From positions 1 through 35,756 of the forward strand of contig JAFRXH010000031.1 of the NCBI GenBank assembly GCA_017437785.1: a stretch of 35,756 nucleotides of DNA, written 5' to 3'. Under the pieces are notes generated by a model. That model was not told where the DNA came from, ran no database searches, and worked only from the letters and a program-made list of their open reading frames with translations. The DNA is from Lachnospiraceae bacterium (lineage in GTDB: Bacteria > Bacillota > Clostridia > Lachnospirales > Lachnospiraceae). Position numbers and translations under genes: made by a program. Positions within the stretch are counted from its first letter, which is position 1, and each line of letters opens with the position of its first letter. This document shows, piece after piece, positions 2,711 through 9,718 of this stretch.

Positions 2711-2800
2711 GGGGGAAGAAACCCATGATAAAAAACGCAAGCCGTCTGGGGTAACAAGTTAATACAGGTTACAAGGGGGAGGACACCCATGATAAAAAAC
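2711..2800 (+). repeat. Duplicated ribosome-site/start-codon segment with 9-codon upstream ORF
   Basis: A 26-base segment (GGGGGA, then ACCCATGATAAAAAAC) occurs at 2711-2736 and again at 2775-2800 with two mismatches, offset by 64 bases. Each copy holds a ribosome site and ATG ATA AAA AAC. The second copy starts the 333-residue gene. The first opens a mini-ORF (2725-2754, MIKNASRLG, stop TAA). It may be a leader peptide or simply the scar of a small duplication. Confidence 0.7.
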
Positions 2801-3790
2801 ATTCTTGTGACAAATCATAATGGTGACATTATCGGCGCAACCTACCCGAAGCGGGCAAGGGGCCTTATAAAGAGCGGACGTGCGAAACAGATCGATGAGG
2901 GTACTATACAACTCACTGATGCTGTATGTGCGGACGCTTTTTCTGTTAATTATATGGAGGATAAAAAAATGGCTAATGTTATAGAATTCAGAGCAAGAGG
3001 TTTTAAACTTGATGAGAACATCGCTAACGGAAAGGGAACCAGACTGATGGTTACCGAGTGCGGCGAGAGCGTAGAGTGCTTTGAGGTGGCACAGGGAGGC
3101 ATAGCTACCGGCATCACAAAGACAGCAGAGCTTGAGAAGGACAAGGATTATGTGTTCCGCTTTGCTATCAAGAGCCAGTTCGTACGTGCGGATGTGGCAG
3201 AGAGCAGCGTTTCCATCTACTTCAAGGAGCCCGGTGACGGATACACCTATCCCATCGACAGAGCGGATAAGAACCGCTTCAAACCCGCTGTATGCAAGAA
3301 GACCGATGACGGCATCTTCCGTGTATTTGAGCTTCCCTTTAACAGCGGTGATGATACGAGCTGCACTATCAGCATACAGCTGCATGATATGACAGCCTGG
3401 ATCTATCCCGCAAAGGATAATGATGCATACAGCGCACTCCAGGATATCGATTACGATCAGTTCAGACAGGACGAGATACACAACATTGCGAAGACTCTGA
3501 ACAATATCGGCGGATCCATCGGCGGTACATTAAATGACATCGGCGGCACTTTGGGAGATACCCTTAACGGTATCGGCGAGTTCGCAGTGGGCGTAGGTGA
3601 TAAGATCACCAAGGCTGTGACGGATGTGTTCTCCAAGTCTGCAGACAAAGAGGCTGCTGAGGAATGCCCTAAGGAGGAAGAGGCTGAGTGCAAAGTTACT
3701 CCTGCTGAAGAGGTTAAAGAGGAAGTAAAGGAAGAAGTCAAGGAAGAGGAAAAGGAAGACAAACCCGAAACCGCTGAGCCTAAAGACTGA
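2789..3790 (+). CDS. Uncharacterised protein: RRXRR-like N-terminus, acidic tail
   Basis: The function is unknown. Residues 1-45 (NHNGDIIGATYPKRARGLIK, then SGRAKQID) match the short 'YPKRAxGLVKxGRA' segment common at the N-terminus of Clostridial hypothetical proteins and reminiscent of RRXRR domains. Residues 61-225 form a beta-rich globular region. Residues about 236-262 are a Gly/Asp/Asn repeat (NNIGGSIGGTLNDIGG), possibly an amphipathic or phage-tail-like segment. The last 45 residues are a Glu/Lys/Val repeat (EEVKEEVKEEVKEE). A second good start exists inside the gene: ATG 2969 (MANVIEF) follows GGAGG (2956-2960) at 8-base spacing. The cell may therefore make a 273-residue form, or the N-terminal 60 residues may be a recent in-frame fusion. 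A strong terminator follows. Confidence 0.75.
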   Translation: MIKNILVTNHNGDIIGATYPKRARGLIKSGRAKQIDEGTIQLTDAVCADAFSVNYMEDKKMANVIEFRARGFKLDENIANGKGTRLMVTECGESVECFEVAQGGIATGITKTAELEKDKDYVFRFAIKSQFVRADVAESSVSIYFKEPGDGYTYPIDRADKNRFKPAVCKKTDDGIFRVFELPFNSGDDTSCTISIQLHDMTAWIYPAKDNDAYSALQDIDYDQFRQDEIHNIAKTLNNIGGSIGGTLNDIGGTLGDTLNGIGEFAVGVGDKITKAVTDVFSKSADKEAAEECPKEEEAECKVTPAEEVKEEVKEEVKEEEKEDKPETAEPKD

Positions 3791-3799
3791 CAAGATCCT

Positions 3800-3827
3800 G
3801 CCGCGGAGCTTCGGCTCCGCGGCTTTT
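3800..3827 (+). terminator. Strong rho-independent terminator
   Basis: GCCGCGGAGC and GCTCCGCGGC form a 10-bp perfect GC-rich stem closed by a TTCG tetraloop, then TTTT. It ends the 2789-3790 gene. Confidence 0.92.
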
Positions 3828-3862
3828 ACTGTAATAAAAATGCAGCGGAAAGTATATGGTAT

Positions 3863-4813
3863 ATGGAAAAGCGTGAACTGATAAGAGTATTTACGGATGA
3901 GGCGGTTACCGCATGCATACCGGTGGGCTGCGGGCACATAAATGACAGTTATCATGTCTGCACCATTAAGAATGAATATATACTGCAGAGATTGAATGCA
4001 AAACTGTTTGCCGGTAGTACAAAGGCATTGGAACGTAATTACATTCTTTACAGGGATGCATGTCGGGAAAATAAGAACAGGACGGGAGAATGGGAGGTGC
4101 CGCACTGGTTAAGCTGCAGTGCAGGCAGTTTTTTATATACAGATGAAGAGGGTGCATGCTGGAGGATGTATGAATACATTAAAGGAAAAACGCTAACGGC
4201 ACCCTTTGACACGGAAGATATCAAAGCTTTCGGTAATGGCTTGTCTAAGCTGCATTTTATACTGGAACAGATGAAAGAAACGCCGCAGGGAGTACTTAAT
4301 GAGCTTCACGATACACGCGGCTATTACAGGGATTATGAAAAGATAAGGGAATCAGCTGATGAGTCTTTACACGACAGAATGCTTGAGGCTATAATTGAAC
4401 GTAAAGCGCAGCGGATCTTAGATATCAGCCTTCCGGGAATGTCCGTGATACATGCGGATGCAAAGATCGGCAATGCGTTATTCCGCGGCGGCAGTATGAT
4501 ATCCATGATAGATCTGGATACTATCATGCAGGGAGCGCGTCTTCTGGATATTGCCGATGCGTTACGGTCATGCTGTATGAGCGGAGGAGCGTTTGACAAA
4601 ACTTTGGCGGATGTATTTGTTAAGGCTTATCAGGGATCAGGATATGCACGGCTTTCAAAAGAAGAATGCGAAGCACTGCCGGAGGCGTTTAAGCTTATAT
4701 GCTATGAGCTGGGACTCAGATACTATACGGATCATCTGAACGGAGGAATATACTTTAAGCAGGAGTATCTCGGGCAGGATCTGGATAAAGCAAAAAAACT
4801 GCTTTTAGGCTGA
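3863..4813 (+). CDS. APH-fold sugar kinase, N-acetylhexosamine 1-kinase-like
   Basis: This 316-residue protein has the aminoglycoside-phosphotransferase/choline-kinase fold. The N-terminal lobe carries GHINDSYHV and YILQRLN, the pattern seen in NahK-type N-acetylhexosamine kinases. The catalytic loop is HADAKIGN (His197, Asp199, Asn204), the variant of HxDxxxxN used by NahK relatives. The metal-binding motif is MIDLDTIMQG (Asp217/Asp219). By family it should transfer phosphate from ATP to a small hydroxylated substrate, probably the anomeric hydroxyl of a sugar, in the cytoplasm. The substrate cannot be read from the sequence. GGAAAG precedes ATG 3863 by 10 bases. It sits 25 bases upstream of the alpha/beta hydrolase, so the two are probably co-transcribed. 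Confidence 0.8.
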   Translation: MEKRELIRVFTDEAVTACIPVGCGHINDSYHVCTIKNEYILQRLNAKLFAGSTKALERNYILYRDACRENKNRTGEWEVPHWLSCSAGSFLYTDEEGACWRMYEYIKGKTLTAPFDTEDIKAFGNGLSKLHFILEQMKETPQGVLNELHDTRGYYRDYEKIRESADESLHDRMLEAIIERKAQRILDISLPGMSVIHADAKIGNALFRGGSMISMIDLDTIMQGARLLDIADALRSCCMSGGAFDKTLADVFVKAYQGSGYARLSKEECEALPEAFKLICYELGLRYYTDHLNGGIYFKQEYLGQDLDKAKKLLLG

Positions 4814-4838
4814 TCATAAATATTGGGAGAAAGCTAAT

Positions 4839-5780
4839 ATGACGAAGAGAAGCGAATACAAACATATTTCCGGCACCGACGGTCTTGAACTGGCTGTCAT
4901 GAGGATAGAGCCTGATGATCCATCGGAGGTAAAGGGCGTTCTGCAGCTGGTACACGGTATGAGTGAGCATAAGGAAAGATATGCCGGTTTTATGCGGTAT
5001 ATGGCCAAAAGAGGATATATCTGTGTTATACATGATAACAGGGGACACGGCAGCAGCGTGGAGAATATCGATGATCTGGGATATATGTATGAGGGAGGAT
5101 ATGAAGCGCTGATCGAGGATATTCATGAGATAACGCTTGAGACCAAAGAATATGCTAAAAAGCTCTGCCCGGGTACGGAATTAAGATATGCTCTGCTTGG
5201 TCACAGCATGGGCTCTCTGGCGGTAAGATGCTATATAAGAAAATATGATGCCGATATAGACAGGCTCTGTGTACTGGGATGTCCGTCAAAGCTTGGAGGG
5301 ATGAGAGCAGGACTGGCGACAGCAGAGGTTCTTTCGCTTTTGTTTGGGGAGAGATCAAGATCTTCGATCATGGATGGTATAGTGTTCGGGGCGGTTGATA
5401 CCGGACGCTTCAATAATGAAGGCATTGAAAATGCCTGGCTGTGCTCGGATGGTGAGGTTACCCGGGAGTACAATAAAGATCCCTATTGCGGTTTTAAGTT
5501 CACGCTCAACGGATACATCAATCTGATAAAACTGTCTATACTTACTTATACAAAAGGCGGCTTTGCACTGAATAACAGGCAGCTGCCGATAAGATTTTTT
5601 TCCGGCAGCGATGACATATTCGGCATATCCCGTAAAGATATAGCAAAGGCTATGGGGCTGTTAAAACACGCAGGGTATGAAAATGTGCGTGGCCGTGTCT
5701 ATCCGGGTATGCGGCATGAGATATTAAACGAGCCAAAGCGCTTAAGGGTCTATAAAGATATTTATGAATTTCTGGAATAA
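4839..5780 (+). CDS. Alpha/beta hydrolase, monoacylglycerol-lipase-like
   Basis: This is a 313-residue cytoplasmic serine hydrolase of the Hydrolase_4/lysophospholipase group. The oxyanion region is LQLVHGMSEHKERY. The nucleophile elbow is GHSMGS (Ser123). The acid is in FFSGSDDIFG (Asp258 or Asp259), and the base is His293 in YPGMRHEILNEP. The N-terminal NRGHGSS motif is typical of monoglyceride lipases. By family it hydrolyses a carboxylic ester such as a monoacylglycerol or lysophospholipid. It has no signal peptide. GGGAGAAAG precedes the ATG. No terminator separates it from the kinase upstream. Confidence 0.85.
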   Translation: MTKRSEYKHISGTDGLELAVMRIEPDDPSEVKGVLQLVHGMSEHKERYAGFMRYMAKRGYICVIHDNRGHGSSVENIDDLGYMYEGGYEALIEDIHEITLETKEYAKKLCPGTELRYALLGHSMGSLAVRCYIRKYDADIDRLCVLGCPSKLGGMRAGLATAEVLSLLFGERSRSSIMDGIVFGAVDTGRFNNEGIENAWLCSDGEVTREYNKDPYCGFKFTLNGYINLIKLSILTYTKGGFALNNRQLPIRFFSGSDDIFGISRKDIAKAMGLLKHAGYENVRGRVYPGMRHEILNEPKRLRVYKDIYEFLE

Positions 5781-5808
5781 GATCTTTGTTTTTCATCATG
5801 GTGTATAT

Positions 5809-5837
5809 TTGACGTAAATGAACGTGAATGCTATGAT
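5809..5837 (+). promoter_or_regulatory. Sigma-A promoter of the Y-RNA array
   Basis: TTGACG (5809-5814) and TATGAT (5832-5837) are separated by exactly 17 bp. The expected transcription start falls at about 5843-5845, which is the first base of the closing helix of the first RNA (5844). This fit supports an RNA that begins at its own basal stem. Confidence 0.75.
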
Positions 5838-5843
5838 TATCCT

Positions 5844-5970
5844 GTCGGCAGCTAAGCGGATTTACTGCTATTTGGGCCGGGTGATGCAGGTTAGATCCCT
5901 GCCGGTTTCTCCGGAAACCGTAGCTTAATGTTAAAGCCCCCGGAATGCTCAATCCGATGATATCGCCGGC
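5844..5970 (+). ncRNA. YrlA-type Y RNA with a complete permuted tRNA-like module
   Basis: The basal helix is GTCGGC (5844-5849) with GCCGGC (5965-5970), then AGCTA opposite GATATC. A second helix pairs CGGATT (5857-5862) with AATCCG (5951-5956). Inside is a circularly permuted tRNA. Anticodon-stem strands are CCGGG (5877-5881) with CCCGG (5939-5943). The variable loop is TGAT. The T-arm is GCAGG/CCTGC with 7-base loop TTAGATC (5891-5897). The acceptor stem is CGGTTTC (5903-5909) with GAAACCG (5914-5920), exactly 7 bp, capped by TCCG (a cUNCGg tetraloop). T8-A9 follow, then the D-arm GCTT/AAGC with loop AATGTTA (5927-5933). Known YrlA RNAs share this plan: a Ro-binding stem plus a tRNA mimic. 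The conserved tertiary bases U8-A14, U54-A58 and G18-U55 are all present. Confidence 0.85.
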
Positions 5971-5975
5971 AAAAG

Positions 5976-6033
5976 GGGCATAGCTAGCAAGGCTTACTTC
6001 ATGTCGGGAGAATAGCATTGCGATAACATGCCC
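5976..6033 (+). ncRNA. Second RNA of the array: small Y-like hairpin
   Basis: It repeats the basal module of the first RNA without a tRNA-like insert. The closing helix is GGGCAT (5976-5981) with ATGCCC (6028-6033). AGCTA (5982-5986) lies opposite GATAAC (6022-6027). The inner stem is GCAA with TTGC, a G-A mismatch, then GCT with AGC. TTACT starts exactly 7 bases after AGCTA, as in the other two copies. The primary sequence of the helices differs while pairing is kept, which argues for selection on structure. No separate promoter is visible, so it is probably processed from the array transcript. Confidence 0.6.
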
Positions 6034-6040
6034 GGCATAT

Positions 6041-6118
6041 GTCGGCAGCTAGCCGCGTTTACTTCGGCTTCCACGGTGGGGTTACCTCACCAAACCAAAA
6101 CGCGGCAATATCGCCGGC
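6041..6118 (+). ncRNA. Third RNA of the array: Y-like hairpin
   Basis: The closing helix is GTCGGC (6041-6046) with GCCGGC (6113-6118), identical to the first RNA. AGCTA (6047-6051) lies opposite AATATC (6107-6112). The inner helix GCCGCGTTT (6052-6060) pairs perfectly with AAACGCGGC (6098-6106), 9 bp. TTACT again begins 7 bases after AGCTA. A terminal hairpin GGTGGG/CTCACC occupies the loop. TTTTAT follows the closing strand, so a fraction of transcripts could end here. The rest would continue 27 bases to the start codon of the TerD-fusion gene. Confidence 0.65.
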
Positions 6119-6144
6119 TTTTATCGGCATCGGAGGATAATACG

Positions 6145-8214
6145 TTGGAGAGACAGTTTAAGGAATATTTATTTCAAAAACATCTTCTTGTAAGTGAAGG
6201 ATCTGTTTTAGAGCCTCATTCATTTGAGACTCTTTTTGCATTGGCCAATCTGTTTAATATTTCCGTAAAGTCCGGTAAAGAACTGGCACAAAAGGATATG
6301 ATATCCCTGGCAGCCGATCAGCTGGGACAGAGAGTGCCGGATCCTTTTTATAAAGGGTTTCCGCAGAGTGTGCGTGAGCTTACAAAAGATCAGCTGCTTT
6401 TTGACCAGCTGGTCCACTATTCCGTGACTTATGGTTTCGGTAATTTTTCTGAAGCAGGGCATTCAGTGTTTGAACAGACATTTGAGAGAATGGCTTTTAA
6501 AGAAAATTGTGAGATAAGAGAGTTTGATATAATAAGCGAGGAAGAAGCGGTTAAGAAAATGGCCGGATATGTTGATGGCCTGCTTTCTTCAACGAGACCG
6601 ATAAATGACACTCAATTCGGACTGATACGGGATTTCATTACGATATACCGTTACAATATTAAAAACTGCAGTTCCAAAAATACGGCGGTACGTCTTATCA
6701 CCGAACTGCGAACTTTAAAATTTGCGCGCTTTCTTATGCTGTCGGACGTTATCAAATTGCTTGATATGGTCTTATACACCGGATACGGTCAGGAAGACCT
6801 GCGCAGCCTTAATCTGAAAAACAAAGACAGGAAGCTGATAAGTGCTGTGATAGACGAGCTTTTTGCGTATTCGCGCTGCGATATTGATACCTGTTATGAA
6901 AAGAAAGATATATGGTGCGGTCTGCTGCATCATATCCATTACCGTCCCAAGTGCGATAAGGCTAAGGAATTTGTTAAAGCCATGCGCAGTAAAGGGAACT
7001 TATCGGCATATTCGGCTTTCGAAAAAGCCATGAATGAAGGTGATATACGCGGAGCGGTAAAGACTCTTAAAGAGAAAAAAGGATCGGGAGCAGTGCTTCG
7101 CAATCTTAATTATATCGTAAGCCGTATCGTTAAGCCCGAGGATCTGAGCTTTGTACTGGAGTCGGTCGGCACAAAGAACAATATCATCCTTATGCAGCTG
7201 CTTTTGAATTATACAAAGGACAGGGAGATTGAAAGAAGTGCAGGCAGGAGTTTCCGTTTTATAAAACACGGTACCATGCGTATACATGATGAGACAGATG
7301 AAGAAATGTCACGCAGAAGATCGATGCTCAGCATGGGTCAGTATAAGGCCATATCTATATTCATGGATGAAAATCTACGTGCAAATCTTAAAGGGAAACT
7401 TGGCAGGGTCTATGTGGATGAGACTATGAAGAAGATCGCGCTTCCGCTTCAGGAGGCATCTTCGAACGGAGGCTACGGAGTGCTTTCCAAAGGATCGAGG
7501 ATCACCGTTCCCGCAGGAAAGAAGATACGTGCATTTACATATTGGGAAAAGGTTGACGATATAGATCTGTCTGTTATCGGTATGTCCGCAGACGGCCGGC
7601 AGACAGAGTTTTCATGGAGGACCATGGCCGATAAGCAATCCGATGTGATCACTTTCTCCGGAGATGAGACCAGCGGTTATAAAGGCGGATCGGAGTTCTT
7701 TGATATAGATATAGACAGATTTTTAAAAAAGTATCCGGACATCAGATATCTTGTTTTCTGCAACAATGTTTTTTCGGGAAGTAATTTTGACAAGTGTTTC
7801 TGCAAAGCGGGATTTATGATGCGTGATCTGATCGATTCGGGAGCGGTATACGAGCCAAAGACTGTCAATACCTCTTTTATCATTGATTGTCCGTCTACTT
7901 TCGCTTATCTCTTTGCACTGGATCTTATCAACAGGGAGATGATCTGGCTGAATGTGAGCAGGGCAGGTAATACAACGGTAGCCGGTGAGAGCAGACTTCT
8001 TTTCCTGATGGATTATTTTGATACCGTTAAAGTACTTAATGTCTACCGATTCTTTGAGATGATGGCTAGCGAGATGACGGATGATCCGTCTGCAGCCGAT
8101 ATCATTGTATCCGACAGGCCGGAGTTTATGGATGTAAACGGAAATGTATACGGTTCAAAAGAGCTGATACGCAGTTACGATCACGAAAGACTTCTTAAAC
8201 TGATGAACAGCTGA
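6145..8214 (+). CDS. Large helical protein with C-terminal TerD-like domain
   Basis: The start is taken as TTG 6145 (LERQFKEYLF) because CGGAGGA lies just before it. The in-frame ATG at 6028 would run through two structured RNAs. The product is 689 residues, cytoplasmic, without signal or membrane segments. Residues 1-415 are alpha-helical and repeat-like (for example SDVIKLLDMVLYTGYG and GAVLRNLNYIVSR). Residues about 420-457 (LGRVYVDETMKKIALPLQEA, then GVLSKGSRITVP) are the connector I associate with large TerD-fusion proteins. Residues about 458-590 resemble a TerD domain: IRAFTYWEKVDDIDLSVIG, ITFSGDETSG, FFDIDIDRFLKKYPDIRYLV. TerD domains often bind calcium and occur in stress and RNA/DNA-conflict systems. 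I see no vWA/MIDAS motif, so this is not a standard Ro60. Its position behind Y-like RNAs suggests it is their protein partner. Confidence 0.7.
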   Translation: MERQFKEYLFQKHLLVSEGSVLEPHSFETLFALANLFNISVKSGKELAQKDMISLAADQLGQRVPDPFYKGFPQSVRELTKDQLLFDQLVHYSVTYGFGNFSEAGHSVFEQTFERMAFKENCEIREFDIISEEEAVKKMAGYVDGLLSSTRPINDTQFGLIRDFITIYRYNIKNCSSKNTAVRLITELRTLKFARFLMLSDVIKLLDMVLYTGYGQEDLRSLNLKNKDRKLISAVIDELFAYSRCDIDTCYEKKDIWCGLLHHIHYRPKCDKAKEFVKAMRSKGNLSAYSAFEKAMNEGDIRGAVKTLKEKKGSGAVLRNLNYIVSRIVKPEDLSFVLESVGTKNNIILMQLLLNYTKDREIERSAGRSFRFIKHGTMRIHDETDEEMSRRRSMLSMGQYKAISIFMDENLRANLKGKLGRVYVDETMKKIALPLQEASSNGGYGVLSKGSRITVPAGKKIRAFTYWEKVDDIDLSVIGMSADGRQTEFSWRTMADKQSDVITFSGDETSGYKGGSEFFDIDIDRFLKKYPDIRYLVFCNNVFSGSNFDKCFCKAGFMMRDLIDSGAVYEPKTVNTSFIIDCPSTFAYLFALDLINREMIWLNVSRAGNTTVAGESRLLFLMDYFDTVKVLNVYRFFEMMASEMTDDPSAADIIVSDRPEFMDVNGNVYGSKELIRSYDHERLLKLMNS

Positions 8215-8235
8215 TAAGCTAAAGACAGCGAAAAA

Positions 8236-8279
8236 AAAGGGGATGGTCTTATGGGAGCATATGACCATCCCCTTTCTGT
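8236..8279. terminator. Bidirectional terminator between convergent genes
   Basis: AAAGGGGATGGTC (8236-8248) pairs perfectly with GACCATCCCCTTT (8263-8275) around a 14-base loop. The plus strand continues into TTTCTGTTTT. On the minus strand the stem is followed by eight T residues (complement of 8231-8238). It serves both the TerD-fusion gene and the minus-strand hydrolase. Confidence 0.92.
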
Positions 8280-8296
8280 TTTGTATACGCAATGTT

Positions 8297-9718
8297 TTAA
8301 GGTACTATGCTTACAGGCTCGTAGCGGATCCGGAGTGTGGGCATCTTAGTCATGGCAGCGTAGTAGTTAACGTCCCAGTCATCACGCCCGTCGTCTGTAT
8401 TTACACCTTCCGAAGGTGTAGCAAAGAATTTAAGATCAAGATCGGTGGGGCCGCTAAGCGGTTTATCAAAAAACGCTTCCATCAGATCTACGCATTTGGT
8501 TCCCGGAGCCTTATAAAACCAGCGCCCGTTCAGTTCCATCATAAGGCTTAAATCTTCTTCAAAATAAATCTCGCAGAATTCCGGATTGGCTTCAAAGTGT
8601 ATATCAAGAGCCAGACCTTCGGAATCTTCTGCGCCGCCCCAGCGGAATTTAAAAGGCAGCTGTGTTTCACCGTCTTTTATGACAGGTATCTGGTAGTAGG
8701 GATCGGCCATTATCTCTTTATAATCCTTAAGTATGGGCTGCGCGATCCCGGCGTTTTTATTATTGGGGTCTTCTATCTCAAGTCCCAGACGGCCGCGGTC
8801 GCGGAACTGATAGAAGGTTATTGAATCAAACCAGTCGGCTTTATCATTTTTTATATGCTCCAGAAAACGCTTAAGTGTCTCACCCTGATGCAGGGGACCC
8901 GTAACATCTCCGTCTGCGTTTAATTCTCCCGATATCATGGGCTTGTTCTGGCCTGTTATCTTACGAAGACGCAGGGATGTGTTTTTAAAGTCATTGTATG
9001 TTTTTTCGGTGGGCGTAAATGTATGCCTGCCGCCGTCATCTTTTTCGGCGATATCATAGGGCCAGCCGTAATGCAATGCAAGATAACGGTCGGCGCTCCA
9101 TATATCGGCGGCCTTGTATGCCTCTATCAGATCTTCCTCACGTTCCACGCTTTTATCTTCGGATTCAGCGAAGCCTGCGCAGAGTATGGTCTTAACATTG
9201 GGGGCTTCTTCTTTTATGATCGAATTAAAGCGTACAAAGAAATCGCCTATCTCTTTAAAGCTGAATCTTTTATTGTGAGTGAACCAGTTGCCGGTGCATT
9301 CATGATTGATGCGAAGGCGCATACGCCCGTAAGGCTTAAGCTGCTTAGCGAAACTGCGCAGGGTATCATCGTCCAGTGAGCAGTCGATGGTGATGGTAAG
9401 AGTTACATCCTGACCGTGACGGCGTATATCCTTCATGTACTTAAAGGGTTCGTCGTTAACGCCGAAGGGGAAGTAATCATCGTAGGGATAGTCCCACGCA
9501 AAGGAAACCTCCATATCTTTGCAGGCCTCTGAGATACGTGCGGGCCACTCTTTGTCCTTGGGATAATAGGTATACATCAGATTGATGTTTCTGTGGGGAC
9601 GGCCCAAAAGGTGCAGTATGTAGTCCTGATCCACATATTCGCCGCGCTCGCTTCCGTCTGACAGATCCAGAGCCAGCGGAGCTTTTCCTAAATGTATAGC
9701 ATGCAGGGTTTCGCTCAT
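8297..9718 (-). CDS. Putative GH26-like TIM-barrel glycoside hydrolase
   Basis: The 473-residue protein has no signal peptide, so it probably acts on imported oligosaccharides in the cytoplasm. The segment RLRINHECTGNWF places a Glu (E140) in the position of the acid/base of clan GH-A enzymes, similar to HEMNGxWF of GH26 mannanases. The likely nucleophile is Glu265 in KPMISGELNADG. Residues about 345-473 appear to be a beta-rich C-terminal domain. The family assignment rests on these two motifs only; another GH-A family or an unclassified relative is possible. The start ATG (9716-9718) has AAAGGAG upstream, and a promoter lies at 9753-9781. The gene diverges from the SAP/SNF2 operon and ends at the shared terminator. 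Confidence 0.65.
   Translation of the reverse strand: MSETLHAIHLGKAPLALDLSDGSERGEYVDQDYILHLLGRPHRNINLMYTYYPKDKEWPARISEACKDMEVSFAWDYPYDDYFPFGVNDEPFKYMKDIRRHGQDVTLTITIDCSLDDDTLRSFAKQLKPYGRMRLRINHECTGNWFTHNKRFSFKEIGDFFVRFNSIIKEEAPNVKTILCAGFAESEDKSVEREEDLIEAYKAADIWSADRYLALHYGWPYDIAEKDDGGRHTFTPTEKTYNDFKNTSLRLRKITGQNKPMISGELNADGDVTGPLHQGETLKRFLEHIKNDKADWFDSITFYQFRDRGRLGLEIEDPNNKNAGIAQPILKDYKEIMADPYYQIPVIKDGETQLPFKFRWGGAEDSEGLALDIHFEANPEFCEIYFEEDLSLMMELNGRWFYKAPGTKCVDLMEAFFDKPLSGPTDLDLKFFATPSEGVNTDDGRDDWDVNYYAAMTKMPTLRIRYEPVSIVP

Follow-up and report, generated by a model that had tools for sequence, protein, structure and literature searches.

Y-like RNAs encoded beside a TerD-fusion protein gene: a probable new bacterial ribonucleoprotein

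The contig JAFRXH010000031.1 of a Lachnospiraceae bacterium (assembly GCA_017437785.1), a stretch of 35,756 nucleotides that we analysed as a whole and call the window, carries on its plus strand three tandem Y-like RNAs (5843-6119), followed by a TTG-start gene (6145-8214) whose product joins a helical N-terminal region to a TerD-like C-terminal region. This locus very probably encodes both halves of an undescribed ribonucleoprotein in which, we infer, the TerD-fusion protein physically binds the Y-like RNAs. To our knowledge, bacterial Y RNAs are known only with Ro60/TROVE partners. In the literature that we covered, which took in few subscription journals so that an earlier Y RNA/Ter mention is possible, there is no description of these RNAs paired with this protein family. 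The source genome amounts to 3.2 Mb in 107 contigs, of which the window is contig C86; its nearest named relatives carry the Lachnospiraceae label, and many were sampled from rumen or gut.

An earlier note, made from the sequence of this DNA alone, had described three tandem structured RNAs ahead of a TerD-fusion gene, and this description stands, as the folds beat shuffles, the motif is conserved and the pairs covary. The three units share a common frame, GCTA-N7-TTACTTC (TTACTGC in unit 1), then the complement of the N7, then GATATC, GATAAC or AATATC, and compared to dinucleotide shuffles they fold with z of -2.2, -3.0 and -3.5 for units 1, 2 and 3, respectively. The top match of Rfam 15 within 5760-6200 is YrlA (RF02553) at 5842-5975, with 31.4 bits (E 5e-5 for 441 nt). 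Though the curated cut-off for YrlA is 69 bits, RNA 1 aligns with basal stem, T-arm, acceptor-like hairpin and D-arm all in YrlA order, in agreement with the YrlA-like architecture that the first unit had been credited with; the tRNA-like module of RNA 1 is based on this alignment, on the fold and on consensus helices 3-5. An Rfam search of the whole window gave no match reaching the cut-offs in the array region, the YrlA score of one homologous locus (L003) is 42.7 bits, again below 69, and no YrlA match at cut-off was found in 10 loci with long copies. The internal loop of the basal stem is the Ro-binding part of YrlA; its 3' strand reads GAUAUC here (RAUAUC is conserved in relatives) as against aAaAcUuG in the Rfam YrlA consensus.

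Homologous loci were obtained by scanning genome contigs with a six-protein alignment, and 80 of 147 relatives were kept. Upstream regions of up to 800 nt were collected from these loci and the window, 81 in all, 76 of at least 150 nt and 5 shorter. GCTA-N7-TTACTTC at fixed spacing, with at most one mismatch, is present in 65/76 upstream regions, and the 81 regions together hold 130 such copies, when a mean of 0.47 is found in mononucleotide shuffles. No copy lies antisense, and elsewhere in the loci 9 were counted in 636 kb over both strands. Conservation of the motif thus excludes a chance origin of the array. A looser rule gives 131 copies, in 119 of which the 3' strand could be anchored by the GATATC-like motif alone (12 had no anchor); at least 6 of 7 positions are paired in 85 of the anchored copies, while shuffled partners reach a mean of 24.4 and a maximum of 39. 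We also aligned 47 short copies, hand-chosen from the 87 left after filtering by pairing and motif, and 29 long copies. Compensatory changes of both partners were seen in 12/13 pairs of the short and 23/30 pairs of the long alignment, with standard pairs making up 93.9% and 97.6% of the pair cells; the covariation score was reached by none of 500 shuffles, and shifting the partner strand abolishes the signal. Since pairing guided both the choice and the cutting of the aligned copies, the motif-anchored pairing test is the cleaner one. In two loci (L081, L083) the second helix is longer; this variant was found by eye and is missed by our RNA model R1. The Y-like RNA is real, its helices being conserved with compensatory changes across the homologous loci.

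The copies are of unequal kind. Among the 131, we counted 31 of tRNA type (in 30 loci), 93 short and 7 other long ones, and the copy number of an array varies, up to the four copies seen in L023. Bacterial Y RNAs are reportedly tRNA mimics, as Chen et al. are said to have shown; here the permuted tRNA-like module, judged by the YrlA criterion, is present and confined to long copies (29 aligned copies). An alternative to the proposed partnership starts from this module, and sees in the RNA a tRNA decoy, directed at anticodon nucleases or at other effectors that cut tRNA, with the protein as sensor or antidote in a conflict system. The repair enzymes near a few loci would fit it as well, and the same role is proposed for the tRNA-like domain of YrlA in PMC7790460. 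Yet the 93 short copies lack the module and a tRNA-type copy comes first in only 27/67 loci with copies. Because most copies are without it, the constant part of the RNA is the basal stem and not the mimic, and we consider a decoy system rather unlikely.

The RNA is coupled to the protein family at the genome level, beyond the 5' end of the gene. Among 60 relatives the protein occurs in 6, and R1 (E <= 0.05) found the RNA in 5/6 carriers and in 0/54 non-carriers (Fisher p 1.1e-6); two of the carriers with a match (G000, G031) belong to the training set of the model, and three (G001, G025, G030) lie outside it. In a 295-genome sample of the window's order, R1 was found in G000 only. For 8 of the 11 regions (among the 76) without an upstream motif, R1 (E <= 0.1) matched in the same genome, and in two of these eight (L008, L022) a contig breaks off next to the array. 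Homologues of the protein are therefore not consistently without Y-like RNAs, a finding that would have spoken against the earlier note, and the two co-occur both upstream of the gene and genome-wide.

This coupling extends to the wider MXAN_6230/SCO0854 family, upstream of whose distant genes we read a sister RNA with the same architecture and other conserved letters, in the order lower stem, CUAU, second helix, CUUCCUUCUA, complement, GCUYU, lower stem. It precedes the gene in 29/29 loci (L145-L173), where the last hairpin is often close to the start codon, and double changes were observed in 11/16 pairs over 36 copies, although one of five covariation measures (pair types) is not above shuffles. 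A model of the sister RNA (R3) was searched in 149 genomes from the order of G395, another order of the phylum with large genomes. R3 was found in 52/149 and the protein family in 51/149, with an overlap of 51, that is, 51/51 carriers and 1/98 non-carriers; outside the genomes whose loci had been read, 20/20 carriers had it. Further away, R3 matched immediately past the gene end at 5185 in Niallia taxi (L176; 48.6 and 47.5 bits), downstream of the gene in G138 (35.7 bits) and Variovorax (27.3 and 23.8), and upstream in Streptomyces (21.8); a named carrier of the window type is Eubacterium uniforme ATCC 35992 (L062). Rfam gave nothing relevant in eight remote family loci, where the sister RNA was then noticed by eye, and an R3 search of L106, L107 and L108 gave no match. 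In plasmid loci of Deinococcus and Hymenobacter similar units were seen by eye, and R3 does not find them. Of the Deinococcus units one folds with z -3.5, and the other as cut has no support; in Hymenobacter z is -9.1 for one hairpin and -0.9 for a tRNA-like one. We treat these occurrences as leads. The tRNA-like sequence of the Hymenobacter plasmid (L178, 3664-3779), upstream of the family gene, scores 51.7 bits with Rfam tRNA, and a Y-like hairpin with GCUUCCUUC seems to replace its anticodon arm, in a fold (z -0.9) not above shuffles. About 2 kb downstream of its family gene, the Deinococcus plasmid carries a gene with a TerB-family annotation (L177, 8094-8513). Altogether, the protein family and its RNAs likely form a second widespread bacterial class of Y-RNA-like ribonucleoproteins, built on MXAN_6230/SCO0854 TerD fusions, with at least two RNA subfamilies having recognition loops of their own, which would replace Ro60/Rsr in RtcR/RtcB-type repair and use the TerD-like domain in place of vWA as signal input.

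The position of the RNAs bears on a further alternative, in which they are a cis-acting leader only, whose 5' structures let the protein itself, or a tRNA-related signal, control the expression of the gene. The upstream placement in 65/76 regions and in all 29 sister loci agrees with it, as does the last hairpin near the start codon in many sister-family loci. However, in G025 (L007) a complete three-RNA array lies on contig C9, ahead of a DUF218/LRR gene, and the protein gene on C35, behind a NUDIX-like gene; in G578, the genome of L041, a single RNA sits just downstream of the gene, flanked by what look by eye like a promoter and a terminator; and in G580, the genome of L043, the array opens a row of genes and lies 2.5 kb upstream. 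Downstream placement was also seen in Niallia, Variovorax and G138 with the sister model. In the genome of L042 the RNA stands between other genes on a separate short contig, from which its spacing to the gene is not readable, and in the planctomycete-labelled assembly of L085 a weak R1 match (32.9 bits) is on another contig. RNA and gene are on different contigs in the genome of L036 too; both contigs end in transposase-like sequence (by eye), hence an insertion may simply have parted the two. Arrays that follow the gene, or lie on a different contig, indicate that the RNA is not merely a leader, and several copies per locus together with a tRNA mimic exceed what a leader needs. The leader described in the earlier note thus holds for the usual upstream position, while the placements elsewhere depart from it; a leader alone seems improbable to us, and autoregulation may be an additional role of the RNAs.

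The protein start at the TTG codon is preceded by GGAGG, and in alignments the homologues begin at nearly the same residue. Each of the 60 aligned members has a match to NCBIfam NF041916 (MXAN_6230/SCO0854 family). For the window protein the match has 101.2 bits (E 4.6e-29), not reaching the equivalog cut-off of 600, over model positions 388-711 and its own residues 287-610, the N-terminal part of the model being unmatched. A profile comparison of 20 members with 8 distant Bacillota members gave E 1.7e-50 over 591 columns, and judged by sequence the homology of the window protein to the MXAN_6230/SCO0854 superfamily is clear. Against Pfam the window protein matches no family at E <= 0.1, TerD (PF02342) included, which reaches that threshold in 3/60 members (best E 0.0026). 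The TerD-like C terminus without the metal-ion-dependent adhesion site (MIDAS), as previously noted, is borne out: D-x-[ST]-x-S is absent from the window protein, when DxSGS is present in 4/4 canonical Ro60 proteins. In the AlphaFold model (mean pLDDT 83.4, pTM 0.82) the chain is mostly helical to about residue 415 and beta-rich beyond. A Foldseek search with the whole model, read among the best 50 of 483 PDB matches, places a TROVE domain (9kop) at the top probability of 0.89 and human Ro60 (9nen) tenth, with probability 0.51 and E 0.31. A TROVE-like fold of the N-terminal region is by this model only suggested. The earlier note had left open a very divergent TROVE domain or a different partner protein; the first has the Foldseek hint in its favour, and no sequence profile detects it. 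When the 60 members were compared by hhalign to 4 canonical Ro60 proteins, the probability was 12 (53 columns; E 0.0025 in a single comparison), and with 7 Ro60 proteins it was 0.2-3.7 (reversed controls 0.1-0.2). Searching the PDB by sequence, with profiles of six and of 60 members, returned nothing useful. That we have here the usual YrlA RNAs of a canonical Ro60/Rsr, adjoining the gene by accident, is hardly credible and already contradicted, as the YrlA-like architecture that favours it is set against Pfam TROVE in 0/6 carriers among the relatives (and none in the window genome), a different internal loop, ten long-copy loci without YrlA at cut-off and the coupling with the TerD-fusion protein.

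Several observations weigh against a dedicated partnership with a Ro60-like role. The prevailing upstream position of the array is what a cis element would show. As for the coupling, the carrier G021 is missed by R1 genome-wide and scores 25.5 bits only in a search of its locus alone; L053 has the gene and no RNA detected, as does L029, whose locus ends at the contig end; five distant-family carriers in the 295-genome sample had R1 in 0/5, and R3 matches the loci of only 2/5 of them (G138, G219); and G712 has the sister RNA (R3 E 5.8e-13, C1:2159683-2159756) with no family protein detected. As for the protein, the E-value of the 9kop match is 0.077 with a TM-score of 0.19-0.25, and no Foldseek match is significant by E-value; TROVE (PF05731) is not among the 25 Pfam families listed, of 26, for the 60 members; and given the weak hhalign results we do not call the protein TROVE. 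Finally, an RtcB-like gene was seen in the flanking sequence (up to 6 kb) of only 5/80 loci, of which L014 and L019 resemble each other, so that the five are not fully independent.

Table 1. Features of the array and its gene in the window.
Feature	Position	Strand	Basis
Sigma-70-like promoter match TTGACG-17-TATGAT, possible array promoter	5809..5837	+	Weak: chance-level scan
Y-like RNA 1, tRNA-mimic type	5843..5972	+	YrlA 31.4 bits; copy table; fold z -2.18; covariation with 29 long copies including itself
Parts of RNA 1: lower stem; helix 2; internal loop AGCUA / GAUAUC; apical UUACUGC	5843-5849/5965-5971; 5855-5861/5952-5958; GAUAUC 5959-5964
Permuted tRNA-like module of RNA 1: T-arm 5886-5902, acceptor-like hairpin 5903-5920, D-arm 5921-5933	5886..5933	+
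Y-like RNA 2, short type	5975..6034	+	R1 54.6 bits (training-set member); fold z -2.98
Y-like RNA 3, short type, apical loop with hairpin	6040..6119	+	R1 57.7 bits (training-set member); fold z -3.48
Shine-Dalgarno GGAGG	6132..6136	+	Sequence
MXAN_6230/SCO0854 superfamily gene, 689 aa, TTG start	6145..8214	+	NF041916 E 4.6e-29; homologue starts agree
N-terminal mostly helical region, residues 1 to ~415; proposed RNA-binding, TROVE-like fold suspected	6145..7389	+	AlphaFold, Foldseek
C-terminal beta-rich TerD-like region, residues ~419-689	7399..8211	+	Secondary structure; NF041916 over residues 287-610; Pfam TerD among members

The promoter match that was thought to lead into the first helix (Table 1) is a weak point. 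The scan gave 1 site there compared to 1.0 in shuffles, with the terminator scan likewise at chance level, so that the match taken alone is no evidence. No Ter family was matched by the six neighbouring window proteins that were scanned. Three genes upstream of the array, an open reading frame (2789-3790) has a weak RRXRR-like N terminus below the cut-off, the rest being unassigned.

The RtcB-like genes belong to L013, L014, L019, L038 and L062, and Pfam confirmed two of their proteins. In G580 the gene row runs from the RNA array through an RNA-ligase-like gene and a P-loop kinase with a weak HD match to the family gene; the RNA-ligase-like gene (L130, 6107-7396) is present as two open reading frames in different frames, which points to a broken gene or an assembly error, and one of them has a weak match to PF09511 (E 0.0049, below cut-off) and the other none. 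The Variovorax family gene is transcribed divergently from a four-gene group ending in rtcR and is followed further downstream by two sister RNAs. Other arrangements were noticed at single loci. In L035 array and gene (between 3056-5180 and 8228-8940) sit inside a split long tRNA gene cluster. In L005 (G021; 4225-4750, minus strand) an apparent partial second tmRNA 5' end stands before a tmRNA gene, and tRNA-like pieces lie between this end and the TerD-fusion gene with two Y-like units, all by eye. A small helix-turn-helix-like protein (TPQAIYKWQ), a possible regulator, is encoded 0.2-0.6 kb upstream of the gene in L023, L027, L038 and L058.

Considering the known systems, the closest likeness is to Ro60 (Rsr)-YrlA and the rsr-yrlBA-rtcBA operon, with which the present loci share a bulged basal stem formed from the two ends of the RNA, a distal permuted tRNA-like module (in long copies here), several RNAs per locus and, in some loci, a linked RtcB, rtcR or RNA-ligase-like gene. 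They differ in the internal loop, AGCUA / RAUAUC (CUAU / GCUYU in the sister family), in the apical UUACUUC / CUUCCUUC, in the tRNA module being missing from most copies, and in a partner that is not TROVE by sequence and has a TerD-like domain replacing vWA/MIDAS. The RING domain-containing family NF041916 is matched by all 60 members, yet far below its equivalog cut-off, and its one-line description is without RNA. With TerD of the Ter stress systems the protein shares a C-terminal beta domain resembling TerD; in contrast, it is fused here to a large helical region, and the scanned neighbours are of no Ter family.

We favour a partnership in which the protein, with its helical N terminus and TerD-like C terminus, attaches to the bulged basal stem of RNAs from a Y-like family of its own. 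These RNAs comprise the lower stem, the internal loop AGCUA / RAUAUC, helix 2 and the apical UUACUUC, and the helical region would contact the basal stem. The permuted tRNA-like module, of which many arrays have one copy, may attract tRNA-handling enzymes or divert them, like the YrlA module of the Ro60/Rsr particle. The TerD-like domain, standing at the vWA position of Ro60, could respond to calcium or to a nucleotide-like signal, and the particle would most likely survey, repair or protect damaged (t)RNA. According to PMC7790460 and PMC8394870, YrlA tethers Rsr via its basal stem and PNPase via its tRNA-like domain, and rsr and Y RNAs of Salmonella belong to an RNA repair operon under RtcR control; PMC7159879 and PMC7824862 present TerD as a protein that may sense a nucleotide-like signal. 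Like the binding, we infer the division of labour among the modules and the repair function by analogy, and we give an RNA-repair role of the particle about an even chance. If true, the Y-RNA strategy of a tether stem with an optional tRNA mimic would be more general, being present in several bacterial phyla, the uncharacterised MXAN_6230/SCO0854 family and TerD-fusion proteins would acquire a concrete biochemical role, and Ter stress biology would be linked to RNA repair.

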